From: Mycolicibacterium mengxianglii
GTDB lineage: Bacteria; Actinomycetota; Actinomycetes; Mycobacteriales; Mycobacteriaceae
Reading direction: 5' to 3'
NCBI RefSeq assembly: GCF_015710575.1
Contig: NZ_CP065373.1
Span: 868,001-932,000 of the forward strand
Length of the DNA: 64,000 nt
The notes beneath the pieces are model-generated. The model had not been told where the DNA came from and did no database searches. It worked only from the letters and a program-made list of their open reading frames with translations. Both the position numbers and the translations under genes were made by a program. Each line of letters begins with the position of its first letter. Position 1 is the first letter of the stretch. Below, piece after piece: positions 1,064 through 27,366 of the stretch.

Positions 1064-1121
1064 GCTCGGAGCGTAACTGAAACGTGTTCCAGTTACGAGC
1101 GTCTAGGGGCGGACGGAGCTC

Positions 1122-19041: not shown

Positions 19042-20505
19042 ATGTACTTGAGTAGAAAAATCCTCATCCAGCTCGCCGTCTTCGTCACGGTCTCGCTGGT
19101 CGCCGGCGCGGTGATGCTGTTCAACTTCATCAACCTGCCCGCGATGCTCTTCGGGGTCGGCGAGTACCGCGTCACCATCGAACTGCCCGAAGCGAGCGGC
19201 ATCTACCAGCGCGGCAACGTCACCTACCGCGGCACCGAGGTCGGACGCATCGACGATGTGCGGTTGAGCGACAGGGGAGTGGAAGCCACCCTGGTGATGC
19301 GCGACGATCACCGGATCCCGGCGGACCTCGACGCCGAAGTGCACAGCCAGTCCGCGGTGGGCGAGCAGTTCATCGCGCTGCTGCCGCGTAGCGGGAACGG
19401 ACCCGAACTCCAGGATGGCGACGTGATCCCGATGGATCGCACCACCGTCCCGCCGGATGTCAACACTCTGCTCGACGAGACAAACCGTGGCTTGCAAGCG
19501 ATTCCGCACGACAACCTCAAGACTGCGATCGACGAGGCGTACATCGCCATCGGCGGACTGGGCCCGGAGATCTCCCGGTTCGTCAAGGGCTCCACGGCGC
19601 TGGCCATCGACAGCCGCGCCAACCTCGACGAGTTGACGACATTGATCGACCAGTCCAAACCGGTGCTGGATTCCCAGACCGATACCGGCGGTTCGATCCA
19701 GGCGTGGGCCTCCCATCTGGCCAGCATCAGCGGTCAGCTGCGTGACCAGGACGACGCCTTGCAGGGTGTGATCGTGAACGGATCACCGGCTGCCGACGAG
19801 GTACGTGCGCTCTTCGACCGGCTCCAGCCGACGTTGCCGGTGCTGCTGGCCAACCTGGTCAGCGTCGGCGAGGTGGCGATCACCTACCAGCCGAGTATCG
19901 AACAGCTGCTGGTGCTGTTGCCCCAGGGCACGGCCGTCACCTCTGCCACAGGTGTGGCCAACCGGTTCACCAGGCAGGACTACAAGGGTGCTTACCTGAG
20001 CTTCAACCTGAACCTCAACCTGCCGCCACCATGCACCACGGGGTTCCTGCCCGCACAGCAGCGACGGCCACCTGCCGACGTGGACGCCCCTGACCGGCCG
20101 GCCGGCGAGCTGTACTGCCGGATCCCGCAGGACTCGTCCTTCAATGTGCGCGGTGCGCGTAACGCACCGTGTGTGACGGTGCCCGGCAAACGCGCCGCGA
20201 CGGTACGCCAGTGTGAGAGCGACGAGGCGTACGTCCCGTTGAACAACGGGTTCAACTGGAAGGGCGACCCCAACGCCACGAACTCGGGCCAGGCGATTCC
20301 GGATGTCCCGCCTGGTGCGCCACCTGCGGAAGCAGCCCCGGCGCCCGCGCCGCCGCCGACACCGATCGCGGCCGCCGAATATGACCCAGCAACCGGCACG
20401 TACGTTGGACCAGACGGGCATGTCTACAAGCAAGCCGATTTGGCCAAAGGTGCCGCAGAGGAGCAAACATGGCAGACGATGCTGCTGCCCCCGAAGGGAA
20501 GCTGA
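19042..20505 (+). CDS. MCE family protein, MceF subunit
   Basis: A 487-residue subunit with anchor LIQLAVFVTVSLVAGAVMLF (about 8-27), MCE domain (YRVTIELPEASGIYQRGNVTYRGTEVGRI), and the typical MceF C-terminal region with several cysteines (PPPCTTGF, YCRIP, APCVTV, RQCESD). An Ala/Pro tail and a final domain EYDPATGTYVGPDGHVYKQADLA complete it. It starts one base after the mceE stop, and the first Mce-associated gene begins inside its last 37 bases. Confidence 0.92.
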   Translation: MYLSRKILIQLAVFVTVSLVAGAVMLFNFINLPAMLFGVGEYRVTIELPEASGIYQRGNVTYRGTEVGRIDDVRLSDRGVEATLVMRDDHRIPADLDAEVHSQSAVGEQFIALLPRSGNGPELQDGDVIPMDRTTVPPDVNTLLDETNRGLQAIPHDNLKTAIDEAYIAIGGLGPEISRFVKGSTALAIDSRANLDELTTLIDQSKPVLDSQTDTGGSIQAWASHLASISGQLRDQDDALQGVIVNGSPAADEVRALFDRLQPTLPVLLANLVSVGEVAITYQPSIEQLLVLLPQGTAVTSATGVANRFTRQDYKGAYLSFNLNLNLPPPCTTGFLPAQQRRPPADVDAPDRPAGELYCRIPQDSSFNVRGARNAPCVTVPGKRAATVRQCESDEAYVPLNNGFNWKGDPNATNSGQAIPDVPPGAPPAEAAPAPAPPPTPIAAAEYDPATGTYVGPDGHVYKQADLAKGAAEEQTWQTMLLPPKGS

Positions 20506-22899: not shown

Positions 22900-24135
22900 G
22901 TGGCTCGGCTCGCGGCGACAGACGCCCAGGCGTTCTGGATGTCGGGCAAGATCGCCAACGATGATTTCTTGTTGTACGCATTCGACGGTGCGCCGCCGCT
23001 GAGACCGGCACTGGCGCAGCTGCATCGCCGCGCAGCTGTGTGCCACGACCTGCGGTTGCGCATCCTCGACGACTGTCCGGCCCGATACCCGGCGTGGGTC
23101 TACGGTGCGCTCGGGCCGTCGCAATTGGTGGTGCACGACGGTCTGGACTGGCCTGCCTGCATGGCTGCCGTGGCGGATCTCGCTGACGACCAGTTGGACG
23201 CGACCACTGCCGCGTGGCGGGTCCATGTCTTCACCCCTGTCACCGAGGTGCCCTCGTCATCTGGGCCGGCAACCGTTGCCGTGCTCCAGATATCGCATGC
23301 CCTGGCGGACGGAACGCGGTCTGCTGACCTGGCCGGGTGGTTGTTCGGCCGTGCCACGCCGGTGAAGGCGGTCACGGCCCCACGGCCGGGGAGTCTGGTG
23401 CTGCGGTCGGTAACCGCTGCGCGGGCCCATCAGCAGCTGGTGCGCGACACCGCCGCCGGTGTCCTGCCCGTACCGGCTGCGCCCAGCCCGCCGCTGCTGA
23501 CCAATTCGATGCCGGCAGGCGCGCGGACAGTGCGCACACTGCTGCGGCGCCGCGCGAGCCTGGGCGATCGCACGGTCACGGTGTCGGTGTTGACGGCGAT
23601 TTCCACCGCCCTGGCCGGCTATCTACGGGACCGCGGCGAGGAGGTGTCTGGGCTGGCTGCTGAAGTGCCCATGGCCTACTCCGGGGTCCGGCACGCGCAC
23701 AATCACTTTCGTAATATCGGGGTGGCTCTGCACCCGGATCTACCCGTCGCCGGGCGAGCCGAGGTGATCGCCGCGCAGTTATCGGCCGGCCGGGCTCGCA
23801 GTGAGCACCCGGCAGCCCTCGCCGAGCGCCGGTCCTTCGCCGCGGTGCCCGCACCATTGCTGCGATGGGGACTGCGCCACTTCGACACCTCGACCCGGCC
23901 GCCGGCGGTGACGGGTCACACCGTGGTGACCAGCGTGTACCGCGGTGCCGCCGACCTGCACTTCGGCGATGCCCCCGTGCTGTTCACCGCGGGGTATCCG
24001 GCGCTGTCGCCGATGATGGGGCTGGTGCATGGCGTGCACGGGATCGGTGATGCCGTGGCGATCAGTGTGCATGGCACTGAATCCGCCGGGGATGTGGACG
24101 ATTACGTGGCGCGACTCGCGCGTGCGCTCGGGTGA
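22900..24135 (+). CDS. Wax-ester synthase/DGAT-like acyltransferase family protein
   Basis: A 411-residue protein with the HxxxDG acyltransferase motif: LQISHALADGTRSADL, with H133, D137 and G138. In most WS/DGAT enzymes the motif reads HHxxxDG; here the first His is Ser, but the catalytic one is kept. The C-terminal region has AYSGVRHAHNHFRNIGVALHPDL, resembling the NxxG segments of the DUF1298 half. It lies three bases after the epoxide hydrolase gene and probably ends the mce transcript. It may transfer acyl groups to an alcohol or diacylglycerol. Activity is uncertain because it is shorter and more divergent than canonical Tgs proteins (about 460 residues). Confidence 0.62.
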   Translation: MARLAATDAQAFWMSGKIANDDFLLYAFDGAPPLRPALAQLHRRAAVCHDLRLRILDDCPARYPAWVYGALGPSQLVVHDGLDWPACMAAVADLADDQLDATTAAWRVHVFTPVTEVPSSSGPATVAVLQISHALADGTRSADLAGWLFGRATPVKAVTAPRPGSLVLRSVTAARAHQQLVRDTAAGVLPVPAAPSPPLLTNSMPAGARTVRTLLRRRASLGDRTVTVSVLTAISTALAGYLRDRGEEVSGLAAEVPMAYSGVRHAHNHFRNIGVALHPDLPVAGRAEVIAAQLSAGRARSEHPAALAERRSFAAVPAPLLRWGLRHFDTSTRPPAVTGHTVVTSVYRGAADLHFGDAPVLFTAGYPALSPMMGLVHGVHGIGDAVAISVHGTESAGDVDDYVARLARALG

Positions 24136-24218: not shown

Positions 24219-24734
24219 GTGACTGCCTACGACTTCGCACTCCTTGTCCTGCGGGTGGTGCTCGGCCTGACGATGGCTGCGCACGGATACAACAAGTTCT
24301 TCGGCGGCGGCCGGATCCCCGGCACCGCCGGGTGGTTCGACAGCATCGGCATGAAGCCGGGCCTGTTTCACGCCCGCGTGGCCGCCACCACCGAGATGGC
24401 CGCCGGCATCGGTTTGGCGGTGGGTCTGTTGACGCCGATTCCCGCGGCCGGGTTCGTCGCGTTGATGTTGGTGGCCGCATGGACAGTGCACCGCAAGAAC
24501 GGATTCTTCATCGTCAAGGAAGGTTGGGAGTACAACCTCATCCTGGCCGTCGCGCCGGTGGCCATCGCGGGTCTCGGCGCGGGGAAACTGAGCTTGGACT
24601 ACCTGCTGTTCTCGGACACCGGGCTGTGGGATCTGTTGCACGGCTGGTGGGGTCTGGCCATCGCGGTGGTGCTGGGTCTGGCCGGCGGTATCGGCCAGCT
24701 GGCCATCTTCTACCGCCCACCCGTGAAGGCCTGA
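24219..24734 (+). CDS. DoxX family membrane protein
   Basis: A 171-residue protein with four hydrophobic spans (about 5-25, 55-78, 105-125 and 138-160) and the DoxX signature near the start: LRVVLGLTMAAHGYNKFFGGG, followed by GWFDSIGMKPG. Members of this family associate with thiosulfate oxidoreductases or redox enzymes in some organisms, but most have no defined role. It begins 83 bases after the acyltransferase gene and is convergent with a DUF899 gene. Confidence 0.85.
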   Translation: MTAYDFALLVLRVVLGLTMAAHGYNKFFGGGRIPGTAGWFDSIGMKPGLFHARVAATTEMAAGIGLAVGLLTPIPAAGFVALMLVAAWTVHRKNGFFIVKEGWEYNLILAVAPVAIAGLGAGKLSLDYLLFSDTGLWDLLHGWWGLAIAVVLGLAGGIGQLAIFYRPPVKA

Positions 24735-24741
24735 TCGGGCG

Positions 24742-25515
24742 TCAACCGTGGTCGCCGTGCCGGCCGAGCGTCTGCACCGGGGTCGCACCGGGGCGGGTCC
24801 ACTGCGGTAGCGGCCGGCTGGTCGGACCCCAGGTCGCATTCCCGTCGGCGTCCGACCGCCAGGTCCAACACGAGTGACGCCCCGCCGGCCGGCCCGCCGG
24901 GTTGTCCTCCCACGCCTCACCCCGGCCGAACGGCGTCATGTCGAGCAGGCCCATGGACCCGTTGACCGGTTCGTTCCCGCGACCCGTCGTGGAGTAGGTG
25001 AGGAACGCCCGGTGCCCGTCGCGCAGGTAGCAGGTGATCGACCCCATGCTGTCGCCGACCGGGGCGGGGACATCGCGCACCGAGTACCACGGCTGGGTGT
25101 AGCCCATGAAGTCGATGTAGGAGGCCACCTCGGGCCAGCGGCCCGTCGTCAGCAGTGCGAATGAGACGCCGCGGGCATTGAGATAGACAGCATCCTTGAG
25201 GTGCCAGGCGGTGGTGGTGCAGCCCTCGCACTGACCCTGGTGCGGCGCGCCGTCGTGCCACATGTGTTTGTAGACCACGAGCTCGTCGCGACCCTGGAAC
25301 AGGTCCAGGAAGGGCACGGCGCCGTCGGCTCCGATGACGTCGACCGTGCCGTCGAACTCCACCATCGGCAGCCGGCGGCGGGCCGCTGCGAGCGCATCAC
25401 CCGCGCGGGTGTGGGCCTTCTCGCGGACCAGCAGCTCGCTGCGGGCCGCCTGCCAGGTGCCCAGGTCGACCACCGGCGGTCGACCAGGCAGCGCGGTGTT
25501 CGGGTCTGTTGTCAT
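24742..25515 (-). CDS. DUF899 (thioredoxin-like) family protein
   Basis: A 257-residue cytoplasmic protein of the DUF899 family, whose core resembles a thioredoxin fold. Recognisable segments are WQAARSELLVREKAHTRAGD, FLDLFQGRDELVVYKHMW and QCEGCTTTAWHLKD (an EGCT motif with one Cys), plus TTGRGNEPVNGSMGLLDMTPFGRGEAWEDNP. The ATG at 25513-25515 has a strong GGAGG site. The frame upstream to 25761 crosses the divergent promoter and was rejected. Function is unknown. Divergence from the KstR-site gene means the operator at 25600-25623 may affect both. Confidence 0.82.
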   Translation of the reverse strand: MTTDPNTALPGRPPVVDLGTWQAARSELLVREKAHTRAGDALAAARRRLPMVEFDGTVDVIGADGAVPFLDLFQGRDELVVYKHMWHDGAPHQGQCEGCTTTAWHLKDAVYLNARGVSFALLTTGRWPEVASYIDFMGYTQPWYSVRDVPAPVGDSMGSITCYLRDGHRAFLTYSTTGRGNEPVNGSMGLLDMTPFGRGEAWEDNPAGRPAGRHSCWTWRSDADGNATWGPTSRPLPQWTRPGATPVQTLGRHGDHG

Positions 25516-25599: not shown

Positions 25600-25623
25600 C
25601 AGACTAGAACACGTTCTAGTCTG
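25600..25623. promoter_or_regulatory. KstR operator
   Basis: An almost ideal palindrome: 11-base arms separated by two bases, with core CTAGAACACGTTCTAG. It fits the mycobacterial KstR consensus TnnAACnnGTTnnA exactly. KstR is the TetR repressor of cholesterol catabolism genes, relieved by sterol CoA intermediates. The site ends seven bases before the ATG of the DUF3556 gene and 85 bases from the DUF899 start. Confidence 0.85.
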
Positions 25624-25629
25624 ACCCCC

Positions 25630-27366
25630 ATGGGATTTCTGAAGCAGAACACTCCCCAGGTCGACCTCGAGGAGTGGAACAAAGGCACCCGCGCCGAGAA
25701 GATCATTCCGATGGCCAGGCACTGGGCCGAGGTCGGGTTCGGCACCCCGGTGGCATTGCACCTGTTCTACGTCGCCAAGATTGCTGCCTACATTCTCGGC
25801 GCCTGGCTGATCGTGCTGACCACCACCGGGATCGACGGCTTCACCAACGTCGCCCAGTGGTACGCCGAGCCGATCGTCTTCCAGAAGGTCGTGCTCTACA
25901 CGATGCTGTTCGAGGTCGTCGGCTTCGGTTGCGGTTTCGGACCGCTGAACAATCGGTTCTTTCCGCCGATGGGATCGATCCTGTACTGGCTGCGGCCCGG
26001 CACCATCCGACTGCCACCGTGGCCGAACCGGATCCCACTTACCAAGGGCGACAGACGTACTGCGTTCGACGCGGCGGTGTACGGGGCGCTGCTGGTGGTA
26101 TTGCTGGTCGCGCTGTTCTCCGACGGGACAGGACCGGCAGCGGGCACCGAGGTAGGTGTGCTGCCTGCGTGGCAGCTCTGGACCGTCCTGGGGTTGTTGG
26201 CGCTGATCGGCCTCCGGGACAAGGTGATCTTCCTGGCCGCTCGCGGTGAGGTGTACGGCTCACTCACGGTGGCCTGCCTGCTGGCCTCCCACAGCGTCGT
26301 CGACATGATCGTCGCCGCCAAGCTGGTCTGCCTCGTCATCTGGCTCGGCGCGGCCACCTCGAAGCTCAACAAGCACTTCCCGTTCGTCATCTCCACGATG
26401 ATGAGCAACAACCCGGTGTTCCGGCCGCGTTGGATCAAACGGCGCTTCTTCGAGCACTTTCCCGACGACCTGCGCCCGGGGCGGGCGTCGCGATTCCTGG
26501 CGCACTTCTCCACCGCGATCGAGGGCCTGGTCCCGCTGGTGCTGTTCTTCTCCCACGGCGGCTGGGCAGGGGGGATCGCGGCATTCGTCATGCTGTGCTT
26601 CCACTTCGGGATCTTGTCTTCAATCCCGATGGGAGTGCCGCTGGAGTGGAACGTCTTCATGATGTTCTCCGTGGTGGCACTGTTCGTCGGCCACCCCGAT
26701 ATCGGCCTGGGCGACATGACCAGCCCGCTGCCCATCCTGCTGTTCGTCGTTGTTGCGGGCACCGTCGTGCTGGGAAACCTGTTCCCGCGCAAAGTGTCCT
26801 TCCTTCCTGGCATGCGTTACTACGCCGGGAACTGGGACACCTCGCTGTGGTGCCTCACGCCCTCAGCCGACGCGAAGATCGCCAAGAACATCGTCGCGAT
26901 CGCCAGCATGCCGGCTGCCCAGCTCGAGAAGTTCTACGGCAGCAAGGAAGCCGCGCAGATCCCGATGTACATGGGTTATGCCTTCCGGGCGTTCAACACT
27001 CACGGGCGGGCGCTGTTCACGCTGGCGCACCGCGCGATGGCCGGGCACAACGAGGACGACTACACCCTCACCGACGGTGAGCGCATCGTGTCCACGGCGA
27101 TCGGCTGGAACTTCGGCGACGGCCACATGAGCAACGAGCAACTCGTCGCCGCACTGCAGCAGCGCTGCGGGTTCGAGCCGGGTGAGGTGCGCATCGTCAT
27201 GCTCGACGCACAACCCATCCACCGGCAGACCCAGCAGTACCGCCTGGTCGATGCGGCGACGGGGGAGTTCGAAAGCGGCTACGTCGACGTCGCCGACATG
27301 GTGACCCGCCAGCCGTGGGACGACACCGTGCCGGTGCACGTGCTGCGCAGCAGCACATTACGGTGA
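25630..27366 (+). CDS. DUF3556 family multispan membrane protein
   Basis: A 578-residue integral membrane protein with about nine or ten hydrophobic segments in its first 400 residues, for example VALHLFYVAKIAAYILGAWLIVL, YGALLVVLLVALF and LPILLFVVVAGTVVLGNLF. A soluble C-terminal domain of about 160 residues follows (TSLWCLTPSADAKIAKNIV onward). The family is annotated DUF3556 in mycobacteria and has no established activity. The ATG at 25630 comes directly after a KstR operator, so the gene should be induced by sterols. A role in sterol uptake or handling is therefore inferred. It converges with an SDR gene. Confidence 0.8.
   Translation: MGFLKQNTPQVDLEEWNKGTRAEKIIPMARHWAEVGFGTPVALHLFYVAKIAAYILGAWLIVLTTTGIDGFTNVAQWYAEPIVFQKVVLYTMLFEVVGFGCGFGPLNNRFFPPMGSILYWLRPGTIRLPPWPNRIPLTKGDRRTAFDAAVYGALLVVLLVALFSDGTGPAAGTEVGVLPAWQLWTVLGLLALIGLRDKVIFLAARGEVYGSLTVACLLASHSVVDMIVAAKLVCLVIWLGAATSKLNKHFPFVISTMMSNNPVFRPRWIKRRFFEHFPDDLRPGRASRFLAHFSTAIEGLVPLVLFFSHGGWAGGIAAFVMLCFHFGILSSIPMGVPLEWNVFMMFSVVALFVGHPDIGLGDMTSPLPILLFVVVAGTVVLGNLFPRKVSFLPGMRYYAGNWDTSLWCLTPSADAKIAKNIVAIASMPAAQLEKFYGSKEAAQIPMYMGYAFRAFNTHGRALFTLAHRAMAGHNEDDYTLTDGERIVSTAIGWNFGDGHMSNEQLVAALQQRCGFEPGEVRIVMLDAQPIHRQTQQYRLVDAATGEFESGYVDVADMVTRQPWDDTVPVHVLRSSTLR

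Follow-up and report, generated by a model that had tools for sequence, protein, structure and literature searches.

The closest described counterpart of the locus reported here is the KstR regulon of Mycobacterium smegmatis and Mycobacterium tuberculosis, which has the same operator motif and an orthologous repressor (Kendall 2007, PMC1995591). At the kstR promoter the operator overlaps the -10 region (Kendall 2007, PMC1995591), an arrangement for which we infer a parallel at our locus. The locus lies in a 64,000-nucleotide stretch of Mycolicibacterium mengxianglii DNA, referred to as the window, where a KstR-type operator stands directly before a gene encoding a membrane protein of the DUF3556 family. 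On the protein side, the nearest known systems are GGCX, a vitamin K-dependent gamma-carboxylase, and proteins of the HTTM family (PF05090). DUF3556 resembles them in its predicted fold and has an invariant lysine in an aligned place, a putative counterpart of theirs, although no sequence-level family match joins them and DUF3556 has a Pfam family of its own, PF12077. DUF3556 paralogues within the genus (41–65% identical) belong to the same family and have many invariant residues in common with it; they lack a nearby KstR site, and in its place many carry a purine-rich stretch that resembles a Shine-Dalgarno sequence. KstR operators are already known. The membership of DUF3556 in the regulon is well supported by sequence comparison and appears to be new, unless the gene already figures in an earlier list by its locus number.

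The palindrome CAGACTAGAACACGTTCTAGTCTG spans positions 25600–25623, its perfect 11-base arms flanking a central AC, and encloses the core CTAGAACACGTTCTAG (25604–25619) and within it TAGAACACGTTCTA (25605–25618). A preliminary description of this DNA had given the arms correctly; the gap to the ATG of the DUF3556 gene, which it put at seven bases, is six (25624–25629). Both the published KstR consensus, TnnAACnnGTTnnA, and a matrix of the 47 sites that Kendall 2007 (PMC1995591) lists in Table 3 matched the element. The central 18-mer scored 31.85 against 31.99 for the best training site, whereas among 300 simulated stretches of 64 kb the top score was 21.0. A second matrix, limited to the 16 M. 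tuberculosis sites, gave it 31.2, equal to their maximum. A score level with the best published sites supports the preliminary assignment of the element as a KstR operator. Within the window the runner-up by the 47-site matrix scored 27.4 and third place only 7.6; the loose consensus TNNAACNNGTTNNA, expected 0.15 times per 64-kb window by shuffling, was found twice.

The genome encodes the repressor that such an operator calls for. Its KstR scored 336.2 against the NCBIfam equivalog NF033703 (cut-off 280), and its nearest PDB chain is KstR 5ua2 (E 7e-118), which we take to be the M. tuberculosis protein; the gene adjoins one of the genome's best sites, at position 5105669. Across the genome the loose TNNAACNNGTTNNA occurred at 67 places versus 40 for its reversed control and is therefore weak by itself. 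The tighter TRNAACRYGTTNYA gave 30 places versus none for the reversed pattern, nine of them in the stretch from 4.99 to 5.11 Mb that ends at kstR, and TAGAACNNGTTCTA gave 11 versus none. Among the 36 places scoring above 17 within the own-genome loci examined, a set smaller than the whole genome, only those at kstR and at locus L113 scored higher than the DUF3556 operator, by about 0.1, and L114 tied with it. The operator and the kstR/fadE34 site are of one class.

We compared the best 80 of 483 DUF3556 loci, drawn from named genomes; the genome sets used here and below share members, and their related species cannot count as independent. The preliminary description had made its reading hang on the palindrome recurring at orthologous loci, and the site was present in 77 of the 80, with 8–10 bases separating the 18-mer from the ATG. 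The three misses were L087, in which the left half is gone and the right half retained, L090 (Nocardia) and L093 (Jatrophihabitans). No further place scored above 18 in the 1.05 Mb that make up the 80 loci. DUF3556 itself was found in 143 of 148 genus genomes, and a composite of GAACnnGTTnnA followed by ATGGGnTT in 129 of the 148, against one for the reversed-pattern control. When coordinates were compared by eye, 122 of these composites lay exactly at a listed DUF3556 start, five (G050, G084, G088, G092, G147) had no listed DUF3556 place for comparison, and two (G026, G115) lay elsewhere. Sixteen of the 143 genomes holding DUF3556 had no composite there (G003, G015, G025, G026, G041, G044, G059, G075, G076, G089, G106, G111, G115, G126, G127, G139); several of these are incomplete, and G075, G089 and G115 contain DUF3556 fragments only. 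A score above 18 was reached at 46 of 50 genus orthologues and at one of 23 loci outside the genus (L155, 22.6), whereas none of 20 genus paralogues had a KstR site within 500 bases (best score 3.0). The site therefore belongs to one mycobacterial orthologue and not to the whole family. As far as sequence can establish it, the 18-mer is a KstR-type operator held by selection at the start of that orthologue, which supports the placement of the gene in the sterol regulon.

Features of the window discussed in the text (positions count from its first base)
Feature	Position	Strand	Basis
KstR operator, 18-mer ACTAGAACACGTTCTAGT	25603–25620	.	Matrix score 31.85; kept in 77/80 related loci
TAGTCT, probable -10 box (TANNNT), overlapping the right operator half	25617–25622	+	Conserved in relatives
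DUF3556 (PF12077) membrane protein, 578 aa, GGCX-like predicted fold	25630–27366	+	Pfam E 1.9e-276; two AlphaFold models and PDB comparison
Lys245 codon, invariant, aligned with the HTTM-family lysine	26362–26364	+	Alignments and hhalign
DUF899 gene, divergent, probably not part of the unit	24742–25515	-	Pfam E 7.5e-59; neighbour not conserved
Second KstR-type site	1076–1093	.	Matrix score 27.4

Conservation around the operator is lopsided. In 78 operator-aligned rows, the farthest 20 upstream columns averaged 0.26 bits versus 1.74 bits over the 18-mer; beyond the right edge conservation extends to an invariant T, whereas the mirrored left flank is unkept. This T is the last base of a TANNNT hexamer that ends 6–8 nucleotides ahead of the ATG; 79 of 81 rows have the hexamer there, 75 of them as TARTCT, and L087 retains it despite its lost left half-site. 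Relatives have not kept the outermost CAGA of the left arm; they have kept the outer TCTG on the right, though probably on account of a -10 box, so that the 24-bp symmetry is in part coincidental, the operator itself measuring about 18 bp. In M. smegmatis, 79% of promoters are marked by an ANNNT motif between -6 and -13, with TANNNT the favoured form, and 24% of transcripts begin at or within five bases of the start codon (PMC6448022). A leaderless promoter with its -10 box inside the operator is the natural reading of our alignment. The position supports the preliminary suggestion that bound repressor would block initiation.

The mechanism we propose follows from this layout. The -10 box of a leaderless DUF3556 promoter, TANNNT and mostly TARTCT, would lie within the operator's right half, so that a bound KstR dimer would exclude RNA polymerase. 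A sterol-derived inducer would free KstR from the operator, the inducer of KstR being a cholestenoyl-CoA, and the freed promoter would then yield a single-gene mRNA beginning at or beside the ATG. A minus-strand gene comes after DUF3556 in the window, and the transcript is therefore probably monocistronic. The DUF3556 protein would accordingly be made during growth on sterols. Taken whole, an account in which a KstR operator governs a leaderless, repressible promoter, and the product is a GGCX-fold protein likelier to be an enzyme than a transporter, is in our judgement very probably right.

For the protein, about ten membrane-type helices are predicted, in line with the ten spans given earlier. 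From about residue 75 to about residue 560, the AlphaFold models resemble GGCX when compared with the PDB, rows with other folds being set aside as unrelated, so that on predicted models the protein belongs to the GGCX-like fold. At the sequence level, phmmer and profile searches gave no link from DUF3556 to solved structures, none of 31 DUF3556 members matched the Pfam HTTM model (E ≤ 10), and no HTTM match was found in the M. mengxianglii genome. Lys245 was invariant in overlapping alignments (46 of 46, 31 of 31 and 64 of 64 rows), and hhalign paired it with a lysine present in all 26 HTTM rows at a score of 38.0, where 30 block-shuffled controls reached no more than 33.5; we assume that this HTTM lysine corresponds to Lys218 of GGCX. 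Given the GGCX-like predicted fold and the invariant aligned lysine, we regard DUF3556 as likelier to be a membrane enzyme, perhaps one that uses menaquinol, than a sterol transporter. A fuller version, in which a menaquinol-dependent enzyme of vitamin K-carboxylase fold, under KstR control, uses Lys245 like the active lysine of GGCX during sterol growth, its substrate being a sterol catabolite, a lipid or a protein of the envelope, is a speculative proposal with rather poor odds. The fold, predicted as it is, is a more surprising part of the picture than regulon membership.

The preliminary description had suggested a role in sterol entry or trafficking. A membrane protein of about ten helices under KstR control, as judged by sequence, could be an importer or trafficking protein induced with the regulon, yet the predicted fold is that of an enzyme; we consider this role unlikely, and the suggestion finds no support in the models. 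The identity of the repressor can also be questioned, as this genome encodes many TetR-family proteins (40 match KstR at E ≤ 0.001) and another of them might bind a similar recognition sequence. However, the next-nearest of these to KstR is only 37% alike over 84 residues, the operator is in the class of the kstR/fadE34 site, and two genomes, G063 and G083, lack both the KstR orthologue and DUF3556, which makes a different repressor very improbable. Both genomes are near-complete. They are among the five genus genomes without DUF3556; the other three (G002, G032 and G070, the last 73% complete) have a KstR orthologue. In the 3.2–3.3 Mb genomes G075, G089 and G115, DUF3556 is fragmented and KstR is broken or contains a stop. 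Among genomes from outside the genus, no KstR orthologue was found in five that hold DUF3556 (G166, G294, G349, G354 and G374, for the last of which 64 of 106 candidates were scored), and three (G155, G293, G342) have KstR-like proteins, 43–70% identical, without DUF3556. The co-occurrence of KstR and DUF3556 is suggestive only.

Control by KstR might extend to the divergent DUF899 gene, as the preliminary description allowed. Its ATG (25515) is 84 bases from the palindrome, and many KstR sites sit between divergent genes (Kendall 2007, PMC1995591). Nevertheless, DUF899 adjoined DUF3556 in none of the 80 related loci, two of which had under 800 upstream bases, and the site is therefore not kept for the sake of DUF899. 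Dual control is doubtful, and we rejected DUF899 as a KstR target for want of conserved adjacency. Weak DUF899 matches (38–47% identical) occurred kilobases from DUF3556 in three of the 80 loci, and by eye the DUF899 ATG is preceded by a Shine-Dalgarno-like AGGAGG. That the palindrome, a perfect inverted repeat, is instead an RNA hairpin, a terminator or a chance repeat is next to inconceivable: its score far exceeds those of simulated windows, no T run follows it, a leaderless start would leave it untranscribed with the gene, and the sequence itself is conserved beyond mere pairing. The KstR operator of a single DUF3556 gene remains the best account.

Around DUF3556 the 80 loci often contained genes for DoxX (64), thiolase (62) and enoyl-CoA hydratase (61); considered as co-regulated genes, these had no second site above 18 in those loci. 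The DoxX membrane protein of the window is encoded at 24219–24734, with DUF899 between it and DUF3556, and in 48 of the 80 loci a DoxX relative on the same strand ends less than 400 bases upstream of DUF3556. A 411-residue protein encoded at 22900–24135, which matched no Pfam or NCBIfam family at E ≤ 0.001, has a relative in 60 of the 80 loci and contains an HALADG motif, which to us recalls acyltransferases. By eye, the product of 19042–20505 resembles an Mce protein. Large plus-strand frames of similar size come before it, starting at about 11000, and are perhaps an mce operon; the matrix scan of the window placed no KstR site at these frames. The second KstR-type site of the window lies 12 bases ahead of a minus-strand gene whose product, judged by eye, presumably resembles a 3-beta-hydroxysteroid dehydrogenase. 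At L113, L217, L219, L222 and L225–L228, a near-identical KstR-type site lies near the start of a different gene, whose protein begins MDYGLV or MNYGLV and which we take to be a luciferase-like oxidoreductase.

The published site of MSMEG_5202 (Kendall 2007, Table 3, PMC1995591) fits an M. smegmatis DUF3556 gene. Its 20-mer occurred in 13 of 396 genomes, before DUF3556 in six and before the MDYGLV/MNYGLV gene in seven, a distribution that is ambiguous as to orthology; a second M. smegmatis site was found in none of 10 genomes tried. MSMEG_5202 may be the M. smegmatis DUF3556 orthologue, an assignment helped by its gene-number distance to MSMEG_5228, which we take to be a 3-beta-hydroxysteroid dehydrogenase. 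The excerpted text of Kendall 2007 (PMC1995591) makes no mention of DUF3556, that of Kendall 2010 (PMC3068626) contains no MSMEG_52 gene, and 57 operons with putative KstR sites are described in a related strain (PMC6593523). Among open-licence full texts, taken without supplements, none named KstR together with DUF3556; MSMEG_5202, MSMEG_6475, and KstR with MSMEG_0217 or MSMEG_6475 appeared only in Kendall 2007, and a search of the same texts on bacterial carboxylases and HTTM returned nothing of use. Within these texts DUF3556 was named in a single paper, which in excerpt reports that a membrane protein of Rhodococcus opacus R7, sharing 67% identity with a DUF3556 protein, is up-regulated on polyethylene.

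For DUF3556, a family of unknown function that is near-universal in the genus, these results supply a setting in sterol use for one orthologue, which its KstR control sets apart from the remaining members of the family. They also supply a structural hypothesis, that of a GGCX-like enzyme, drawn from predicted models. If true, the menaquinol-enzyme reading would mean VKGC-like chemistry in bacterial sterol metabolism.
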